Shown here piece by piece: positions 21,884 to 38,297 of a stretch of DNA of 43,355 nt. The translations under genes and the position numbers were made by a program. The notes below the pieces were generated by a model. That model was given only the letters and a program-made list of their open reading frames with translations, had not been told where the DNA came from and ran no database searches. Origin of the DNA: Fusobacterium sp. DD2. GTDB lineage: Bacteria > Fusobacteriota > Fusobacteriia > Fusobacteriales > Fusobacteriaceae. The stretch is taken from assembly GCF_018205345.1 (NCBI RefSeq), contig NZ_JADRHM010000013.1, positions 1-43,355 of the forward strand. Direction: 5' to 3'. Every line of letters begins with the position of its first letter. Within the stretch, counting starts at the first letter, position 1.

Positions 21884-24505
21884 ATGGCAGAGACTCCATT
21901 GATGGGGCAGTATAGAAGAATAAAATCAGAATATGAGGACAGTCTTCTTTTTTTCAGACTTGGAGATTTTTATGAGATGTTTTTTGATGATGCAGTTATA
22001 GCATCTAAAGAGCTTGGACTTACTCTTACAAGTAGAAATAGAGAAAAAGATTATGATGTGCCTCTAGCAGGTGTTCCTTATCACTCTGTTGCCTCATATA
22101 TTGCAAAACTTGTAAATAAAGGATATAAAATTGCAATATGTGACCAGGTAGAGGATCCTAAGACAGCAAAAGGGATAGTAAAAAGAGAGGTAACTAGAGT
22201 AATAACTCCAGGAACAGTAATTGATACTGAATTTTTAGATGAGAAGAGTAACAACTACCTTATGGGAATAAAGGTAGCTGATAATGCAGGTGGAATCGCC
22301 TTTATAGATATTACAACAGGTGAATTTAAGACTACTGAGATAGTTGGAGAGGATATAGTCTTTAAGCTTTTAGGTGAGATAAATAAAGTTGCACCTAAAG
22401 AGATACTTATGGATGAAAAGACTTATGACATCTGTATTGAGGAGCTTAAAAATCAGAACTCACTAAGTGATATTAAGTTCACTAAGGTTCCTGAAAAAAG
22501 AAAATGTGAGGAATACTTAAAAGATTATTTTAAAGTGGTATCTCTTGAAAGTTATGGACTTAAGGATAAAAAGCTTGCAATTACAATATCTGCAACAGTT
22601 CTTGATTATGTAATAGATTTGCAAAAAGGAAAGGATTTACCAGTAGAAAAGATAGGTTATATCAACGAAGATGAGGTTATGGAGCTAAATATAACAACTC
22701 AGAGAAATCTTGATATAATTGATAACTATAGAGATAAAAGTGGAATGGGAACTCTTTTGTGGGTTATGGATGAGTGCATGACCTCAATGGGGAGCAGACT
22801 TCTAAAAAAATTCATAAAAAATCCTATTTTAAATATACCTGAAATAAAGAAAAGACAGGAAGATGTTGGATATTTTATAGAAAATGTTCTATTAAGAGAA
22901 GAGATAAGAGAGAAGTTAAAAGATATCTATGATATTGAGAGAATTATAGGAAAACTTGTCCTGGAAACAGAAAATGGACGTGACCTTATAGCTCTTAAGA
23001 CCTCAATTAAAAATTCTCTTGAGATATTGAAACTATTAAATGGACATGAGATTTTTAACATTGATGTAAAAGTTTTAATAGATATCTATAACATGATAGA
23101 GAAGGCTATTGTAGATGAACCACCATTTTCAATAAGAGAGGGTGGAATAATAAGAAGTGGATACAATAAAGATTTAGATGAACTTCATGGAATCTCAAAA
23201 GATGGAAAAAACTATATTTTAGAAATTGAATCAAGAGAGAGAGAAAGAACAGGAATAAAGGGACTTAAAGTAAAATTCAATAAGGTCTTTGGATATTTTA
23301 TTGAGGTTACTAAAGCAAACTCTCATTTAGTTCCTGAGGAATATATAAGAAAACAGACTCTTACAAATGCAGAGAGATATATAGTTCCAGATCTTAAAGA
23401 GTATGAGGAAAAAGTGCTTAACGCAAAGGATAAGATTCAAAATCTGGAATACTATCTATTTAAGGAATTAAGTGGAGAGATCAAAAAGCACAGAGGAGTT
23501 TTACAGGATTTAGCATATAAGGTATCATATCTTGATGTAATCACTGACTTTGCTCATATTGCTATCAAAAATTCATATATTCAACCAGAGGTAAATGATG
23601 GTGATGAGATTGAGATAATTGCAGGACGTCATCCAATTGTTGAAAAACTGATACCTGCAGGAAAATTTGTTAAAAATAATATTGTATTTGATGATAAAAG
23701 AGAGATTATAATTTTAACAGGGCCTAATATGTCAGGTAAATCAACATATATGAAGCAGAGTGCCCTTATTATAATTATGGCTCATATAGGATCATATGTA
23801 CCAGCAAACTATGCAAGAATAGGATTGGTAGATAAGATTTTTACAAGAGTTGGAGCAAGTGATGACCTTTTAACAGGGCAATCAACTTTTATGCTGGAAA
23901 TGAGTGAGGTAGCAAATATTGTAAATAATGCCACTTCAAAATCATTTATAATACTTGACGAGATTGGAAGAGGAACTTCGACATTTGACGGAATCTCAAT
24001 AGCCACAGCAATTACTGAGTATATTCATGAACAGATAGGAGCAAAGACAATATTTGCAACTCACTATCATGAACTTACACAGCTTGAATCAAGACTTGAA
24101 AAAGCAGAGAACTTCAGAATAGAAGTTAAAGAGGATAAAAAAGAGATAATCTTTTTAAGAGAGATAGTAAAAGGTGGAGCAGACAAGTCTTATGGAATTG
24201 AAGTAGCAAGACTTGCAGGACTTCCTAAAGAGATATTGGACAGATCAAAAGAGGTTCTAAAAAAACTTGAAGAGAGAAAAGAGATAATTGAGAAAAAAGT
24301 TGGAGGAGAACAGCTTCTTTTATTCTGTAATGTTGAGGATAAACCTGAAGAGGAAACAAAAACTGAAGATATAAAAGGAAAAGAGCTTACAAAAGAGCAG
24401 AAAATAGTTATGAGAGTTTTAGCAGAAACAGATGTAGATAAGATGACACCATTAGAAGCATTGATGAAGTTGAACGAACTTAAAAAAATATTGAGTGGGA
24501 GTTAG
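21884..24505 (+). CDS. mutS: DNA mismatch repair protein MutS
   Basis: An 873-residue mismatch-recognition ATPase. The N-terminal mismatch-binding domain has the FFRLGDFYEMF motif (F and E contact the mispaired base). Connector, lever and clamp domains follow. The ATPase domain carries GPNMSGKST from residue 613, the ILDEIGRGTSTFDG Walker B/signature block and ATHYHEL. A C-terminal tail with charged helices matches the MutS1 length. It lies two bases after dus and three bases before the giant Lpt gene. mutL is not in the window. Confidence 0.98.
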   Translation: MAETPLMGQYRRIKSEYEDSLLFFRLGDFYEMFFDDAVIASKELGLTLTSRNREKDYDVPLAGVPYHSVASYIAKLVNKGYKIAICDQVEDPKTAKGIVKREVTRVITPGTVIDTEFLDEKSNNYLMGIKVADNAGGIAFIDITTGEFKTTEIVGEDIVFKLLGEINKVAPKEILMDEKTYDICIEELKNQNSLSDIKFTKVPEKRKCEEYLKDYFKVVSLESYGLKDKKLAITISATVLDYVIDLQKGKDLPVEKIGYINEDEVMELNITTQRNLDIIDNYRDKSGMGTLLWVMDECMTSMGSRLLKKFIKNPILNIPEIKKRQEDVGYFIENVLLREEIREKLKDIYDIERIIGKLVLETENGRDLIALKTSIKNSLEILKLLNGHEIFNIDVKVLIDIYNMIEKAIVDEPPFSIREGGIIRSGYNKDLDELHGISKDGKNYILEIESRERERTGIKGLKVKFNKVFGYFIEVTKANSHLVPEEYIRKQTLTNAERYIVPDLKEYEEKVLNAKDKIQNLEYYLFKELSGEIKKHRGVLQDLAYKVSYLDVITDFAHIAIKNSYIQPEVNDGDEIEIIAGRHPIVEKLIPAGKFVKNNIVFDDKREIIILTGPNMSGKSTYMKQSALIIIMAHIGSYVPANYARIGLVDKIFTRVGASDDLLTGQSTFMLEMSEVANIVNNATSKSFIILDEIGRGTSTFDGISIATAITEYIHEQIGAKTIFATHYHELTQLESRLEKAENFRIEVKEDKKEIIFLREIVKGGADKSYGIEVARLAGLPKEILDRSKEVLKKLEERKEIIEKKVGGEQLLLFCNVEDKPEEETKTEDIKGKELTKEQKIVMRVLAETDVDKMTPLEALMKLNELKKILSGS

Positions 24506-24507
24506 AT

Positions 24508-27189
24508 ATGAAAAAGAAAATAATCTATATTGCTATTTTGATAATAGCGTTAATTTTGGGGTATTTCAATTATTTTGGCGACGATGAAAAACTTGACAAT
24601 ACACAGCAAGTTATCGAAACTACAAATGTAACTTATAAAAATGATGACTATGTTGTTGAAGCTGAAAAACAAAAGGACTATGTAAAAGAGAAAGAAACAG
24701 GATTTGAAAAGGCACAGGCAAAAGTAAATGATATGCTTTTAAGTGGAGACAATGTCTTTATAGACAAAGTTAGAAACCTTGCACTTAAACACAATATTCT
24801 TGGAGTAAGTCCTAATGGTTGGAGATTTAGTGCTGAAACAGCAAACTATAACAAATTAGAGGACAAAGTTACCTCTGATACTGGTGTTACTGCTGAAAAT
24901 GAAGCAAGAGGAATAAAAATATCTGGACAAAACTTTACTACTGACTCAAAGATGAGCTATATAAATCTTGAAAAAGATGTTGTTTTAGAAAATAGAAATT
25001 TAGCTTTAAAGGGAGATAGAGGAGACTATACAGATGCTACAAAAATAGTAAATCTTGCAGATAATATCACCCTTGAAGGTCGTGGAAAAGATGAAGGTCT
25101 TTTAGGTGGACATTTTAAACATCTGAAATATAATATGCAGGATAAGATTTTGGAAGCATGGGAACCTTATGATATCACATATAAAGATGTAAAACTTTCA
25201 GCTGAATCACTTTACTTTAAAGAGGATACAGAGGCTTTAAGAATAACTAAAAATGTTCAACTTGAGGCAAATGGCTTTGTAGTAGACCTTCAAAGTATTG
25301 ATAAAAAACCTAACAGTAATATTTTAAATCTCAATGGAAAACTTGTAGGTAAAAATGATGAATATAGTTTTGTAGCTGATTCTGGAAGATACAATACAGA
25401 TACTAAAATACTTGAGATATTTGGAAATATACGTGGTAAATCTAAAACTGGAGAGCTTTTAGTGGCAGATAAACTTGTATATGATACAAATACAAAGGTT
25501 ATGATAGTTACAAAATCTGATGGAGTAAAATATTCAAATGTAGACGGAGAACTTGTAACAAGAGAGTTTACATATAATTTTAATACTAAAGAACTGGCTA
25601 CAGATGGTCACTATACATTTAAAGGAAAAAAATATGAAAGTGAAGGACAAAATCTTTACTATAACGATATCTCAAAGGATATAAAACTGACAAAGGGATA
25701 TATCTATGATAAAATAAAAAAAGAGAGAGTTAAAGGTGACACTATTCTTCATAATATGACAACTAAGGACAGTTCTGTAACTGGGAATGGATATATTGAA
25801 AATACAACTTATGCTCTTTCAAGTGAGAAAATTCAGTATAAAGGTGCAGAAAAAATTGCAATCATACCTGAAAAATATAAAGTTACTTATCTTAAAGATG
25901 GAAGTATCTTTAGAGGTAAAGATGCCAACTACAATGAAAATACAAATGATTTTGTAAGTAAGGGAGAAGTAATTGTAGAGGGAAAAAACTATATAGCCCA
26001 TGGAAGAGATTTGGAGTATAATAGTAAGACAGGCTTTGGTAAATTCAATAGTAAAATTGAAATTGAAAATCCTAAAGATAATATGCTAATAAAAGGGAAC
26101 AATTTTACATTCCAAAATGGAAAGTATATTGATATATCAGGAAATCTTAATATGGAAACAGATAAGTTTACTGCAAAATCTCAAGAGGGAAAATATAACT
26201 TTGATGATAAAAAAATCTATATTCCTGAAATGATATCTTTTGCAAGTAAAGATGGAAAGACATCTGGAACAACAAAAAATGGTATCTATTCAACTGATAA
26301 AAACTATTTTCATGGAAAGATTTTTGATGGAGTAAATGAAAATAGTAAAGTAAAGAGTAAAAATATCTATTATTATACAAAAGAAAATAGAGTTCTATTT
26401 ACTGGAAATGTTGTTATGGAAAGTCCTGAATCTATTGTAAGAGGAGAAAATATTGAGTATTATCCAGAAAGTGAAACTATAAAACTTATAGGGGAATATA
26501 CAATTAACTATAAGGATTTTACTTTTGAAGGAGTTAATGGAACATTTAACAATAAGACAGGAATTTTACATGGAGAAAAATCTGTTATAACCTCTAAAAC
26601 TGGAGATAGATTTGTTTCTGATAGAGTTGATGGAAATCTAAATGATCTTGTTTTAGATTTTAGTGGAAATATAAATGGACACATATCTAATAATGGTGAG
26701 GTTACAAACTTCAAAGGAGATTATGCAAGATTATACTTCAAGCATGATAAAAAATACGAGCTTTTAAGAAGTGAAGTGAGAGAAAATGCAGTATTTGTGC
26801 AAAATGAAAAAACACTTTACTCTGATTATATTGAGGTGGATCCTGAAAGAAATCTTGTATTCTCAAGAGATAATACAAAACTTGTAATTGATGATCCTAA
26901 AAATGGTAAGACAATAATTACTTCTGATGCAGCTGAACTTGACAGTCAAAAAGATATAGCTACTCTTATTGGAAATGTAAAAGTGGACAATATGAATAAA
27001 GAGCGTGGACTTACTAAGATTACTGCAGATAGAGGAATTATAAATAAAAAGGATAATACCCTTGAATTTACTGGACACGTTGAAATAGAAAATAACGATT
27101 CAACTGTACAGGCAGATAAAGGAATATATAACATGAATACCAAGAAGATAAAAGCCTTGGGAAATGTTTATGTGGACTATAAGAAATAA
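24508..27189 (+). CDS. Giant LptC/LptA-like periplasmic bridge protein
   Basis: An 893-residue protein with an uncleaved-looking N-terminal membrane anchor (about residues 4-22), a short charged linker, and then a long array of beta-hairpin repeats to the last residue. By eye I count about 26 units of roughly 32 residues, with the pattern G/A-x-x-x-x-Y-N-x-x-T-K-x-hydrophobic-x-x-x-G-N-hydrophobic. Clear units include ADSGRYNTDTKILEIFGN, SKNIYYYTKENRVLFTGN and ADKGIYNMNTKKIKALGN. This is the OstA/LptA beta-taco pattern. Known LptC and LptA are each under 200 residues, so this is several times longer. lptB begins 21 bp downstream. I infer a one-piece conduit carrying lipopolysaccharide across the periplasm. 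Confidence 0.85.
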   Translation: MKKKIIYIAILIIALILGYFNYFGDDEKLDNTQQVIETTNVTYKNDDYVVEAEKQKDYVKEKETGFEKAQAKVNDMLLSGDNVFIDKVRNLALKHNILGVSPNGWRFSAETANYNKLEDKVTSDTGVTAENEARGIKISGQNFTTDSKMSYINLEKDVVLENRNLALKGDRGDYTDATKIVNLADNITLEGRGKDEGLLGGHFKHLKYNMQDKILEAWEPYDITYKDVKLSAESLYFKEDTEALRITKNVQLEANGFVVDLQSIDKKPNSNILNLNGKLVGKNDEYSFVADSGRYNTDTKILEIFGNIRGKSKTGELLVADKLVYDTNTKVMIVTKSDGVKYSNVDGELVTREFTYNFNTKELATDGHYTFKGKKYESEGQNLYYNDISKDIKLTKGYIYDKIKKERVKGDTILHNMTTKDSSVTGNGYIENTTYALSSEKIQYKGAEKIAIIPEKYKVTYLKDGSIFRGKDANYNENTNDFVSKGEVIVEGKNYIAHGRDLEYNSKTGFGKFNSKIEIENPKDNMLIKGNNFTFQNGKYIDISGNLNMETDKFTAKSQEGKYNFDDKKIYIPEMISFASKDGKTSGTTKNGIYSTDKNYFHGKIFDGVNENSKVKSKNIYYYTKENRVLFTGNVVMESPESIVRGENIEYYPESETIKLIGEYTINYKDFTFEGVNGTFNNKTGILHGEKSVITSKTGDRFVSDRVDGNLNDLVLDFSGNINGHISNNGEVTNFKGDYARLYFKHDKKYELLRSEVRENAVFVQNEKTLYSDYIEVDPERNLVFSRDNTKLVIDDPKNGKTIITSDAAELDSQKDIATLIGNVKVDNMNKERGLTKITADRGIINKKDNTLEFTGHVEIENNDSTVQADKGIYNMNTKKIKALGNVYVDYKK

Positions 27190-27210: not shown

Positions 27211-27936
27211 ATGATAAATTTATCAGCCCAAAATCTTTGTAAAAGTTATAAAAAGAGAAGAGTAGTTGACAATGTGAGCCTTGAAGTAAATAAAGGTGAA
27301 ATCGTTGGTCTTTTAGGACCTAACGGCGCGGGAAAGACTACAACTTTTTACATGATAACAGGGATAATCCAACCAAATAGCGGTCAGGTATTCTGTGATA
27401 ATATAGAGGTAACTGACTACCCAATGTATAAAAGGGCAAATATGGGAATTGGATATTTGGCACAGGAACCATCAATATTTAGAAATCTAACTGTTGAGGA
27501 GAATATAGCTGCTGTTTTAGAAATGAAAAAAATAGAAAAAAAAGCTCAACAGGACGTTATAGATAGACTTATGGAAGAGTTTAAACTTACTCATGTGAGA
27601 AAGTCATTAGGTTATTCACTTTCAGGAGGAGAGAGAAGAAGAGTTGAGATAGCAAGAACTATAGCTAATAATCCAAGTTTTATTCTTCTGGACGAACCTT
27701 TTGCAGGAGTTGACCCTATTGCAGTAGAGGATATTCAACAGATTATAAGATATCTTAAAGAAAAAGGTTTAGGAATATTAATTACTGACCACAGTGTAAG
27801 AGAAACTCTTAGAATAACAGAAAAAGCCTATATAATGGCTAACGGAAAGGTATTAATCAGTGGAACACCTCAGGAAATAGCTGAAAATGAAACAGCAAGA
27901 AAAATTTACCTGGGAGAAAAATTTAAACTTGATTAA
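27211..27936 (+). CDS. lptB: LPS export ABC transporter ATPase LptB
   Basis: A 241-residue ATPase that powers lipopolysaccharide extraction by the LptB2FGC complex on the inner membrane. Walker A GPNGAGKT is at 36-43, the signature LSGGE at 137-141, Walker B D161 with catalytic E162, and the switch H194. The LptB-type block SLSGGERRRVEIARTIA and the GVDPIAVEDIQ segment after Walker B separate it from amino-acid transporter ATPases. It follows the giant Lpt bridge gene by 21 bp behind AAGGAG. Its membrane partners, LptF and LptG, are about 8 kb downstream. Confidence 0.97.
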   Translation: MINLSAQNLCKSYKKRRVVDNVSLEVNKGEIVGLLGPNGAGKTTTFYMITGIIQPNSGQVFCDNIEVTDYPMYKRANMGIGYLAQEPSIFRNLTVEENIAAVLEMKKIEKKAQQDVIDRLMEEFKLTHVRKSLGYSLSGGERRRVEIARTIANNPSFILLDEPFAGVDPIAVEDIQQIIRYLKEKGLGILITDHSVRETLRITEKAYIMANGKVLISGTPQEIAENETARKIYLGEKFKLD

Positions 27937-36129: not shown

Positions 36130-36138
36130 GAGAGTATG

Positions 36139-37215
36139 ATGAAAATAATAGACAGATATATTTTAAATGAGATTAAGATGCCAGTAATATTTGGAGTTTC
36201 TCTTTTTACATTTATTTTCCTGATAGATATAATTGTAGCTATGATGGAGAATATAATAGTAAAAGGAATTTCAATAATAGATGTTACTAGGATTTTGTCT
36301 TTTTATCTACCGCCGATACTTTCTCAGACTATACCTATGGGAATGTTTCTGGGAATAATGCTTACTTTTTCAAAATTTACAAGAACAAGTGAAGCTACTG
36401 CAATGAGTGCTGTTGGAATGTCACTTAAAGATATAGTTAGACCAGTTTTAAAGGCAGCTATTCTGACAACAGCTTTTATATTTTTCCTTCAGGAAAGTAT
36501 AATACCGAGATCTGTATCAAAATTGCAGTATTTAACAGCTAAAATAGCTTATGAAAATCCAGTGTTTCAATTAAAAGAGAGAACTTTTATAGATGAGGTT
36601 GAGCAGTACAGTCTCTATATAGATAGGCTTGTTGGAAAAGATAAGGTTGCTCATGGAGTTTTGATATTCCAGAAGAACAGTGATAAAAAATTCCCAACAG
36701 TAATTTCTGGAAGTGAAGCATATTGGAAAGATTCATCAATGGTTTTAAAGGATTCAAAATTTTATAACTTTAACGATAAGGGAAAAGTGGTATTGACTGG
36801 AGAATTTGATGAGAAGAAGATTCCTTTAGCTGCTTATTTCAGTGAGATGAATTTAAAAGTTAAAGATATAGAAGCAATGAGTATAAAAACTCTATTTAAA
36901 GAGATGAGAGAAAAAAATGGACCTGAAAAACTTCCATTTAAAATAGAGATAAATAAAAAGTTAGCAGTGCCTTTAGCCACAATTATGCTTTCTTTACTTG
37001 GTGTATTTCTTTCAATAGGACACCATAGAAGTGGAAAGGGAGCAAATTTTGCATTGAGTCTTATTGTTATTTTTTCTTATATAACCTGTCTGAATATTGG
37101 TATGGTCATGTCATCTAGAGGTCTTATTCCTGTGTTTATTGGAATATGGACACCAGATATTGTACTTTTGATTCTAACAATTATAATGTATAAAAAGAAA
37201 GCAAAGGTGATATAA
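36139..37215 (+). CDS. lptF: LPS export permease, LptF-type
   Basis: A 358-residue inner-membrane protein of the YjgP/YjgQ family. Three N-terminal helices (through about residue 120) are followed by a periplasmic beta-jellyroll domain and three C-terminal helices. Family blocks are IIDRYILNEI at the start, SFYLPPILSQTIPMGMFLG, and EINKKLAVPLATIMLSLLGVFLSIG. With LptG it forms the lateral gate that loads lipopolysaccharide onto the bridge. Two adjacent ATGs are possible; 36139 is better spaced from AGGAGAG. It overlaps lptG by one base (TAATG). Which of the pair is F or G is assigned by order. Confidence 0.92.
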   Translation: MKIIDRYILNEIKMPVIFGVSLFTFIFLIDIIVAMMENIIVKGISIIDVTRILSFYLPPILSQTIPMGMFLGIMLTFSKFTRTSEATAMSAVGMSLKDIVRPVLKAAILTTAFIFFLQESIIPRSVSKLQYLTAKIAYENPVFQLKERTFIDEVEQYSLYIDRLVGKDKVAHGVLIFQKNSDKKFPTVISGSEAYWKDSSMVLKDSKFYNFNDKGKVVLTGEFDEKKIPLAAYFSEMNLKVKDIEAMSIKTLFKEMREKNGPEKLPFKIEINKKLAVPLATIMLSLLGVFLSIGHHRSGKGANFALSLIVIFSYITCLNIGMVMSSRGLIPVFIGIWTPDIVLLILTIIMYKKKAKVI

Positions 37216-38297
37216 TGAAGATATTAGATAGATATATAAGTAAAAATTTTATAAAATCATTTTTGCTAAGTCTTATTGCATTTATGGGGATATTTATTGT
37301 AAGTCAGTTATTCAGAGTAGTAAAGTATCTAAGTGATGGAAGATTTACATCACATGATGCTGTACTTTATATTATAACTATGCTTCCAAGAATATTTATA
37401 GATGTGGCACCACTTGCTGTACTTCTTGGTTGTATGATGACAGTAAGCGTTATGGCTTCAAATCTGGAGATTATCTCTTTAAAAACTTCAGGAATAAGTT
37501 TTAAAAGAATAGTTATATGTCCTATTATCTTATCAATAGTGATTTCAGGAATTGTATTTTTTGTAAATGACAGCCTATATCCTAAGAGTCAAAAGATGAA
37601 TAAGGATTTAAGACGTGGTGAGGTAAGTACAAGGGAGGCTCCTATTGAAAAGAGAAATGCCTTTTTAAGAGGAGAAAATGCAAATTATGTTTATCTTATG
37701 TCCAAGTTAAATAGAAAAACTGGATTTGCAGAAAATGTTGAAATAATAGATTTAAATGATGATTTTACAAAGATAGAAAGAATAATTGCAGCACCAGATG
37801 CAAGATATAATTTCAGTAAAAAAATGTGGATGTTAAAAGATGTAAATATAACTTATGGTGATGAAAATAAAAAGCCTGAAACAATGGAATATTTTGCTGA
37901 TAGTAAGTACAGTGATAATCCAGATCATTTTATTACATCATCAGTAGAACCTAGAACTCTTACAATAAAAGAGCTTAAACAGACAATTAGAGATCTTACA
38001 AGTGTAGGGGGAGATACGAGAGAACTTATGGTAGAACTTGGAAATAGATACTCTTTTCCTTTTGCAAGTTTTATAATATCATTCTTAGGTCTTGCACTTG
38101 GTGGAAGATATGTAAGAGGTACATCAGCAGTAAGTTTAGGAGTTTGTGTACTTTTAGGTTATGGTTACTATATAGTAAAAGCAACATTTGAGGCTTTTAC
38201 TTCAAATGGATTTTTAAATCCATTAATAGGTGGATGGATTCCAAATATACTATTTTTAGTTGTTGGACTCTACCTGCTGCATAAGGCGGAATACTAA
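37215..38297 (+). CDS. lptG: LPS export permease, LptG-type
   Basis: A 360-residue YjgP/YjgQ-family partner of the preceding gene, with the same plan: three helices, a periplasmic jellyroll domain, three helices. Typical blocks are ILDRYISKNFIKSFLLS at the start, MLPRIFIDVAPLAVLLGCMM near 55-75, and the C-terminal NRYSFPFASFIISFLGLALG. It would bind LptB on the cytoplasmic side and the N-terminal part of the giant bridge protein on the other. The start codon overlaps the lptF stop. The M16 peptidase gene follows 17 bp later. Confidence 0.92.
   Translation: MKILDRYISKNFIKSFLLSLIAFMGIFIVSQLFRVVKYLSDGRFTSHDAVLYIITMLPRIFIDVAPLAVLLGCMMTVSVMASNLEIISLKTSGISFKRIVICPIILSIVISGIVFFVNDSLYPKSQKMNKDLRRGEVSTREAPIEKRNAFLRGENANYVYLMSKLNRKTGFAENVEIIDLNDDFTKIERIIAAPDARYNFSKKMWMLKDVNITYGDENKKPETMEYFADSKYSDNPDHFITSSVEPRTLTIKELKQTIRDLTSVGGDTRELMVELGNRYSFPFASFIISFLGLALGGRYVRGTSAVSLGVCVLLGYGYYIVKATFEAFTSNGFLNPLIGGWIPNILFLVVGLYLLHKAEY

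Follow-up and report, generated by a model that had tools for sequence, protein, structure and literature searches.

The LPS bridge of Fusobacterium sp. DD2 is probably a single polypeptide in which the roles of LptC and LptA are combined (estimated probability, approximately 0.8). This fused LptC/LptA-type bridge protein (P0001, 893 aa; identified with Pfam, NCBIfam, AlphaFold2 and Foldseek) is encoded at positions 24508–27189 (+) of the stretch of DNA analysed, which comprises 43 355 nt and is termed the window. Computation established its anchor, its continuous LptA/LptC-like fold and its gene context, as well as its co-occurrence with other Lpt components, the existence of an LptD and the lack of any detectable separate lptA or lptC; that both ends make physical contacts, that the protein spans the periplasm and that its cargo is LPS are what we infer.

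The open reading frame consists of 893 codons plus a stop codon and begins with ATG. It starts after a gap of 2 bp from the end of mutS (21884–24505, +; PRK05399, 1032.7 bits against a cut-off of 480), which is kept upstream in relatives, and exactly 21 bp separate its stop codon from the start of lptB, encoding the LPS-exporter ATPase (27211–27936, +; TIGR04406, 376.6 bits against a cut-off of 240). The order mutS–bridge gene–lptB–alaS is retained in most of the relatives examined. A preliminary description of this DNA had reported an 893-residue gene product with a single N-terminal anchor and lptB 21 bp downstream, and the ORF call and hydropathy analysis agree with it. Identity to the Fusobacterium mortiferum counterparts is 58 % for the bridge protein, compared with 90 % for LptB, 83 % for MutS and 86 % for AlaS; judged from these sequences, the bridge protein evolves faster than the products of the neighbouring genes. 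No excess of promoter-like sites over chance was found.

The N-terminal membrane anchor, residues 3–23 (24514–24576, +), was assigned from hydropathy and a modelled helix. The best 19-residue Kyte–Doolittle window scores 2.33, at residue 5, and no such window starting beyond approximately residue 31 exceeds 1.0, i.e. no second hydrophobic segment was found. The N-termini of relatives are also anchored, with a related GYLNYF-like sequence. Pfam searches gave matches to LptC (4e–25, in six stretches), LptD_N/LptA (8.6e–19) and OstA_2 (4.7e–15), all of which exceed the curated cut-offs (PF06835, LptC, 88.9 against 21 bits; PF03968, LptA/OstA, 68.3 against 20.4 bits). The NCBIfam model TIGR04409 (LptC_YrbK) is also passed, at 121.3 bits against a cut-off of 38, and the LptA equivalog TIGR03002 is failed, at 55 against 71.7 bits. 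The NCBIfam rule would label the protein plain 'LptC', masking its size.

A single-sequence search of genome contigs yielded no relatives of the bridge protein; an alignment-based search yielded 15 named ones. The AlphaFold2 model, built from the window protein and 14 related sequences, has a pLDDT of 87.6 and a pTM of 0.55. It is apparent that the protein modelled alone is predicted with confidence to form a continuous beta-taco, as the preliminary description had supposed, with 57 consecutive kinked strands (28 hairpins) over residues 35–891 (24610–27180, +). The strands have a mean length of 11.5 residues and a spacing of 15.1 residues, and the longest non-strand gap up to residue 891 is 5 residues. 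Many strands in the model are kinked mid-way (5+5 residues), as might be expected if each spans the two sheets that make up a V-shaped taco. Autocorrelation of the 15-sequence profile peaks at a lag of 29 (z 11.5) and is also raised at 31, 59, 88–90 and 119, so the repeat is far beyond chance and the hairpin period is 29–30 residues. The earlier estimate, made by eye, of approximately 26 hairpins of 32 residues was thus correct as to the existence of the repeat and close in its count (approximately 28 in the model), but too long in its period. Hydrophobic residues alternate along the strands (z 7.3 against within-strand shuffles; 46 of the 57 strands lie above the shuffled mean), which is as expected for a groove that is hydrophobic inside and polar outside. 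Foldseek comparison with the PDB matched LptC (4b54; TMt 0.85, rmsd 2.1 over 123 columns) and LptA (2r1a_E; TMt 0.83, rmsd 1.9 over 131 columns), as well as LptC within the LptBFGC complex 6mit and LptD chains.

One LptA core corresponds to approximately 131 superposed residues, so that the beta part, residues 35–891, amounts to approximately 6.5 LptA lengths. LptF/G, LptC, one LptA and LptD together measure approximately 16 nm (PMC5575297); this gives approximately 4 nm per module and therefore a contour of approximately 26 nm for the bridge. The preliminary description had proposed a conduit of 125 Å, which is approximately half the contour obtained here, because each 30-residue repeat contributes two rungs. 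The value of 26 nm is the contour of a model whose pTM of 0.55 leaves the global shape (curved, tilted or straight) uncertain. Since it exceeds the 21 nm cited for the E. coli periplasm (PMC5575297), a straight span is not assured. It has also been reported as a view that four OstA domains suffice (PMC3944529). No periplasm width for the species considered here was found by literature search.

A survey across the Fusobacteriota revealed that the length of the protein varies, mostly in steps of whole hairpins. Although 47 of the 63 compared sequences are 870–932 aa long, the range across the phylum is 430–1093 aa, and the length of the bridge is therefore not universally fixed. Lengths of 888–908 aa occur in many lineages that are 26–60 % identical, with no internal indel of 8 or more residues relative to the window protein. 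Elsewhere, the differences from the window protein (29, 29, 29, 31, 68, 186, 193 and 443 residues) lie near whole hairpins. A 468-aa version is present in two species, the rest of whose genus has 899–908 aa, and a 430-aa version in another genus, whose other members have 870–871 aa. These short versions retain the N- and C-terminal parts, the middle being missing, and the 430-aa form is predicted to be a continuous taco of approximately 26 strands (pLDDT 87.0). No DNA-level repeat array was found across the bridge gene by tandem-repeat search, which indicates that the strands have diverged and makes a collapsed-repeat assembly error an unlikely source of the short versions. No extra LptA-like gene was detected in the three short-version genomes (family profile, E≤1), and their LptD frames are ordinary, at 1169–1175 aa compared with approximately 1160–1295 aa in the phylum. 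In genome G041 (L036 / L073), otherwise of good quality, a stop codon, either genuine or a sequencing error, splits the bridge gene into frames of 136 and 752 aa.

These data bear on a further proposal of the preliminary description, an addition to the bridge reading and not an alternative to it, that the protein acts as a ruler for membrane spacing; in this reading, its strand number would set or match the distance between the inner and outer membranes. The constancy of 888–908 aa in divergent lineages and the near-hairpin size of the length changes are in its favour. As originally worded, with one fixed length, the proposal is not supported, given relatives of 430–1093 aa, including 468 versus 899–908 aa within one genus, and LptD lengths that show no matching change; the contour in excess of the E. 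coli periplasm also counts against it. A ruler is accordingly unlikely in general, and one of fixed length is possible within the lineages that keep approximately 57 strands. It might be supposed, more tentatively than the bridge reading and with considerable doubt, that strand number is selected to match the distance between the membranes, evolving in whole-hairpin steps from approximately 25 to approximately 70 strands.

Two lptF/lptG-type permease genes, 36136–37215 (+; PF03739, 1.5e–76) and 37215–38297 (+; PF03739, 8.3e–77), are situated 9 kb downstream of the bridge gene and are the only PF03739 matches in the genome. Matches within one long open frame had raised the possibility of an LptF–LptG fusion, which was rejected when two nearly abutting ORFs were found in six of six loci checked. 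In many cases the two genes share a frame and almost touch (L128–L133), so that a search ignoring stop codons can mistake them for a fusion.

The Pfam LptD models PF04453 and PF19838 detected no LptD in the genome of Fusobacterium sp. DD2. The reading that LptD is missing was overturned when PF03968 matches in long ORFs of relatives exposed a divergent LptD family, comprising OstA-domain ORFs of 1200–1250 aa. Its member in the genome studied, of approximately 1235 aa and located on another contig (G000:C57:233-3940), was found with the family alignment; it is immediately followed by thrS, an arrangement also seen in the relatives that were examined. Pfam apparently lacks a family model for this divergent fusobacterial LptD. 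In genome G075 (L086) the lptD frame is broken into frames of 454 and 806 aa.

Searches of the genome with PF06835 and PF03968 (E≤0.001) matched only the 893-aa ORF, and the family profile revealed no second bridge-type gene at E≤1. Separate lptA and lptC genes were thus not found, and the bridge gene is, on the strength of these profile searches, the only LptC/LptA-like gene detected in the genome. The family alignment (E≤1), applied to ten genomes including the three with short versions, gave no extra OstA-repeat gene other than LptD and the anchored copies of genome G097 described below.

The bridge protein was found in 89 of the 98 Fusobacteriota genomes, as were LptF/G and LptD, and the same nine genomes (G064, G082, G083 and G091–G096) lack all three. 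These are small genomes of one family, and the joint absence suggests loss of LPS export. The nine losses may be one event, so the co-occurrence weighs less than the counts suggest; it supports a shared pathway, short of proof.

Conservation along the protein is highest in the N-terminal segment of residues 35–150 (24610–24957, +), with a commonest-residue frequency of 0.58–0.62, and is also high at the C-terminal tip, residues 871–893 (27118–27186, +), at 0.61; the middle, at 0.41–0.54, lies below both ends. The former segment may be the end that docks with LptF/LptG and the latter the end that docks with LptD. Such a pattern would be expected of a spacer held between two docking ends.

An anchored beta-taco that is the only LptC/LptA-like gene product detected, in a genome that also encodes LptD and LptB2FG, argues that the protein very probably replaces LptC together with the LptA chain. 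The preliminary description had made the same proposal, of which the anchor, the fold and the lack of a second detectable LptC/LptA-like gene are borne out, the bridging role remaining putative. It could be argued instead that the protein is simply an oversized LptC and that, as in E. coli, the rest of the bridge is supplied by a separate soluble LptA, here one too divergent for the profiles. The profiles are indeed limited, in that PF03968 at E≤0.001 missed the N-terminal OstA domain of the organism's own LptD, and a very divergent soluble LptA could escape in the same way. An added LptA would also ease the explanation of the 430–468-aa relatives, which, if they too are without LptA, must span with fewer than half the rungs, a point that counts against the one-chain reading. 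Nevertheless, PF06835, PF03968 and the family alignment (E≤1, ten genomes) gave, beyond the bridge gene, only LptD and the G097 copies, and a protein of 6.5 LptA lengths has no obvious need of an extra LptA; this alternative is regarded as quite improbable. A phospholipid bridge like AsmA or TamB shares the general architecture of an inner-membrane anchor and a long beta-taco (PMC8593681), but is highly improbable here, since no AsmA or TamB domain was found by Pfam at E≤1, the scores for the LptC and OstA families exceed their cut-offs, and the gene adjoins lptB and is co-distributed with LptF/G and LptD.

If the one-chain reading is correct, LptB2FG would extract LPS and push this cargo into the bridge, with the N-terminal helix and the first rungs serving as LptC on LptB2FG and accepting the LPS. 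The remaining rungs would provide one continuous hydrophobic groove, standing in for the LptA chain, and the C-terminal end would pair with the OstA domain of the outer-membrane LptD. LPS would then slide from LptF through a single bridge protein to LptD.

The protein shares with LptC (E. coli YrbK; TIGR04409/PF06835; 4b54, 3my2, and chain C of 6mit) a single anchor, the beta-taco and adjacency to lptB. LptC, however, has approximately 190 aa and one OstA-size domain (a 125-residue core in 4b54), compared with 893 aa and approximately 57 strands. LptC also docks on LptF/LptG and controls the ATPase; genes for both permeases are present in the window. With LptA/LptH (PF03968, TIGR03002; 2r1a, 4uu4) it shares the beta-taco geometry (131 residues at 1.9 Å) and alternating hydrophobic strands, but LptA, which links LptC to LptD, is secreted with a cleaved signal as small soluble copies, whereas the fusobacterial bridge is a single chain fused to an anchor. 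Fusions that join as many as four OstA domains have been predicted in many Gram-negative bacteria (PMC3944529), and OstA fusion as such is therefore already known. Compared by description only, those fusions likewise have several OstA domains per polypeptide; the present protein differs in being approximately 6.5 LptA lengths long, anchored, near-universal in its phylum, apparently the only bridge component, and variable in length by hairpin steps. The AsmA-like proteins TamB, YhdP and YdbH are also anchored, long beta-tacos that are thought to span the periplasm (PMC8593681), but belong to other families, with phospholipid as their proposed cargo and without an LptB2FG context. The six-protein Lpt system of Borrelia burgdorferi is also divergent, non-proteobacterial and equipped with a large LptD, but differs in retaining separate lptC, lptA and lptB genes (PMC10353723). 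Literature searches of open-access papers returned none on fusobacterial LptC/LptA, and a near-phylum-wide anchored chain of approximately 6.5 units, lacking separate LptA and LptC and occurring in length variants, appears to be undescribed in the papers searched.

Experiments have yet to settle how many LptA molecules a functional E. coli bridge contains (PMC5575297, PMC3944529). Should the whole conduit be one chain, the gene fixes both stoichiometry and length, and the natural versions of 430, 468, approximately 895 and approximately 1080 aa offer a direct test of whether bridge length must match the width of the periplasm. If strand number tracks the distance between the membranes, the phylum would represent a natural length series for the long-standing question of how many LptA lengths a crossing of the periplasm requires. 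A one-chain system would also have neither an LptC–LptA nor an LptA–LptA joint. Thanatin-like peptides are described as acting on the LptC–LptA joint (PMC7237710) and should, by implication, find no equivalent target in such a system.

The deep-branching genome G097 (L049:3400-5645, L050:265-6465) carries three anchored bridge-type genes: one of 932 aa, one that is frame-broken beside lptB and one of 906 aa beside an LptD gene. A 645-aa second repeat gene in this genome was considered as a separate LptA and was reassigned as a further bridge-type copy on account of its own anchor and broken frame. At least three LptD genes are present in G097, and the organism possibly has more than one lipid export line.
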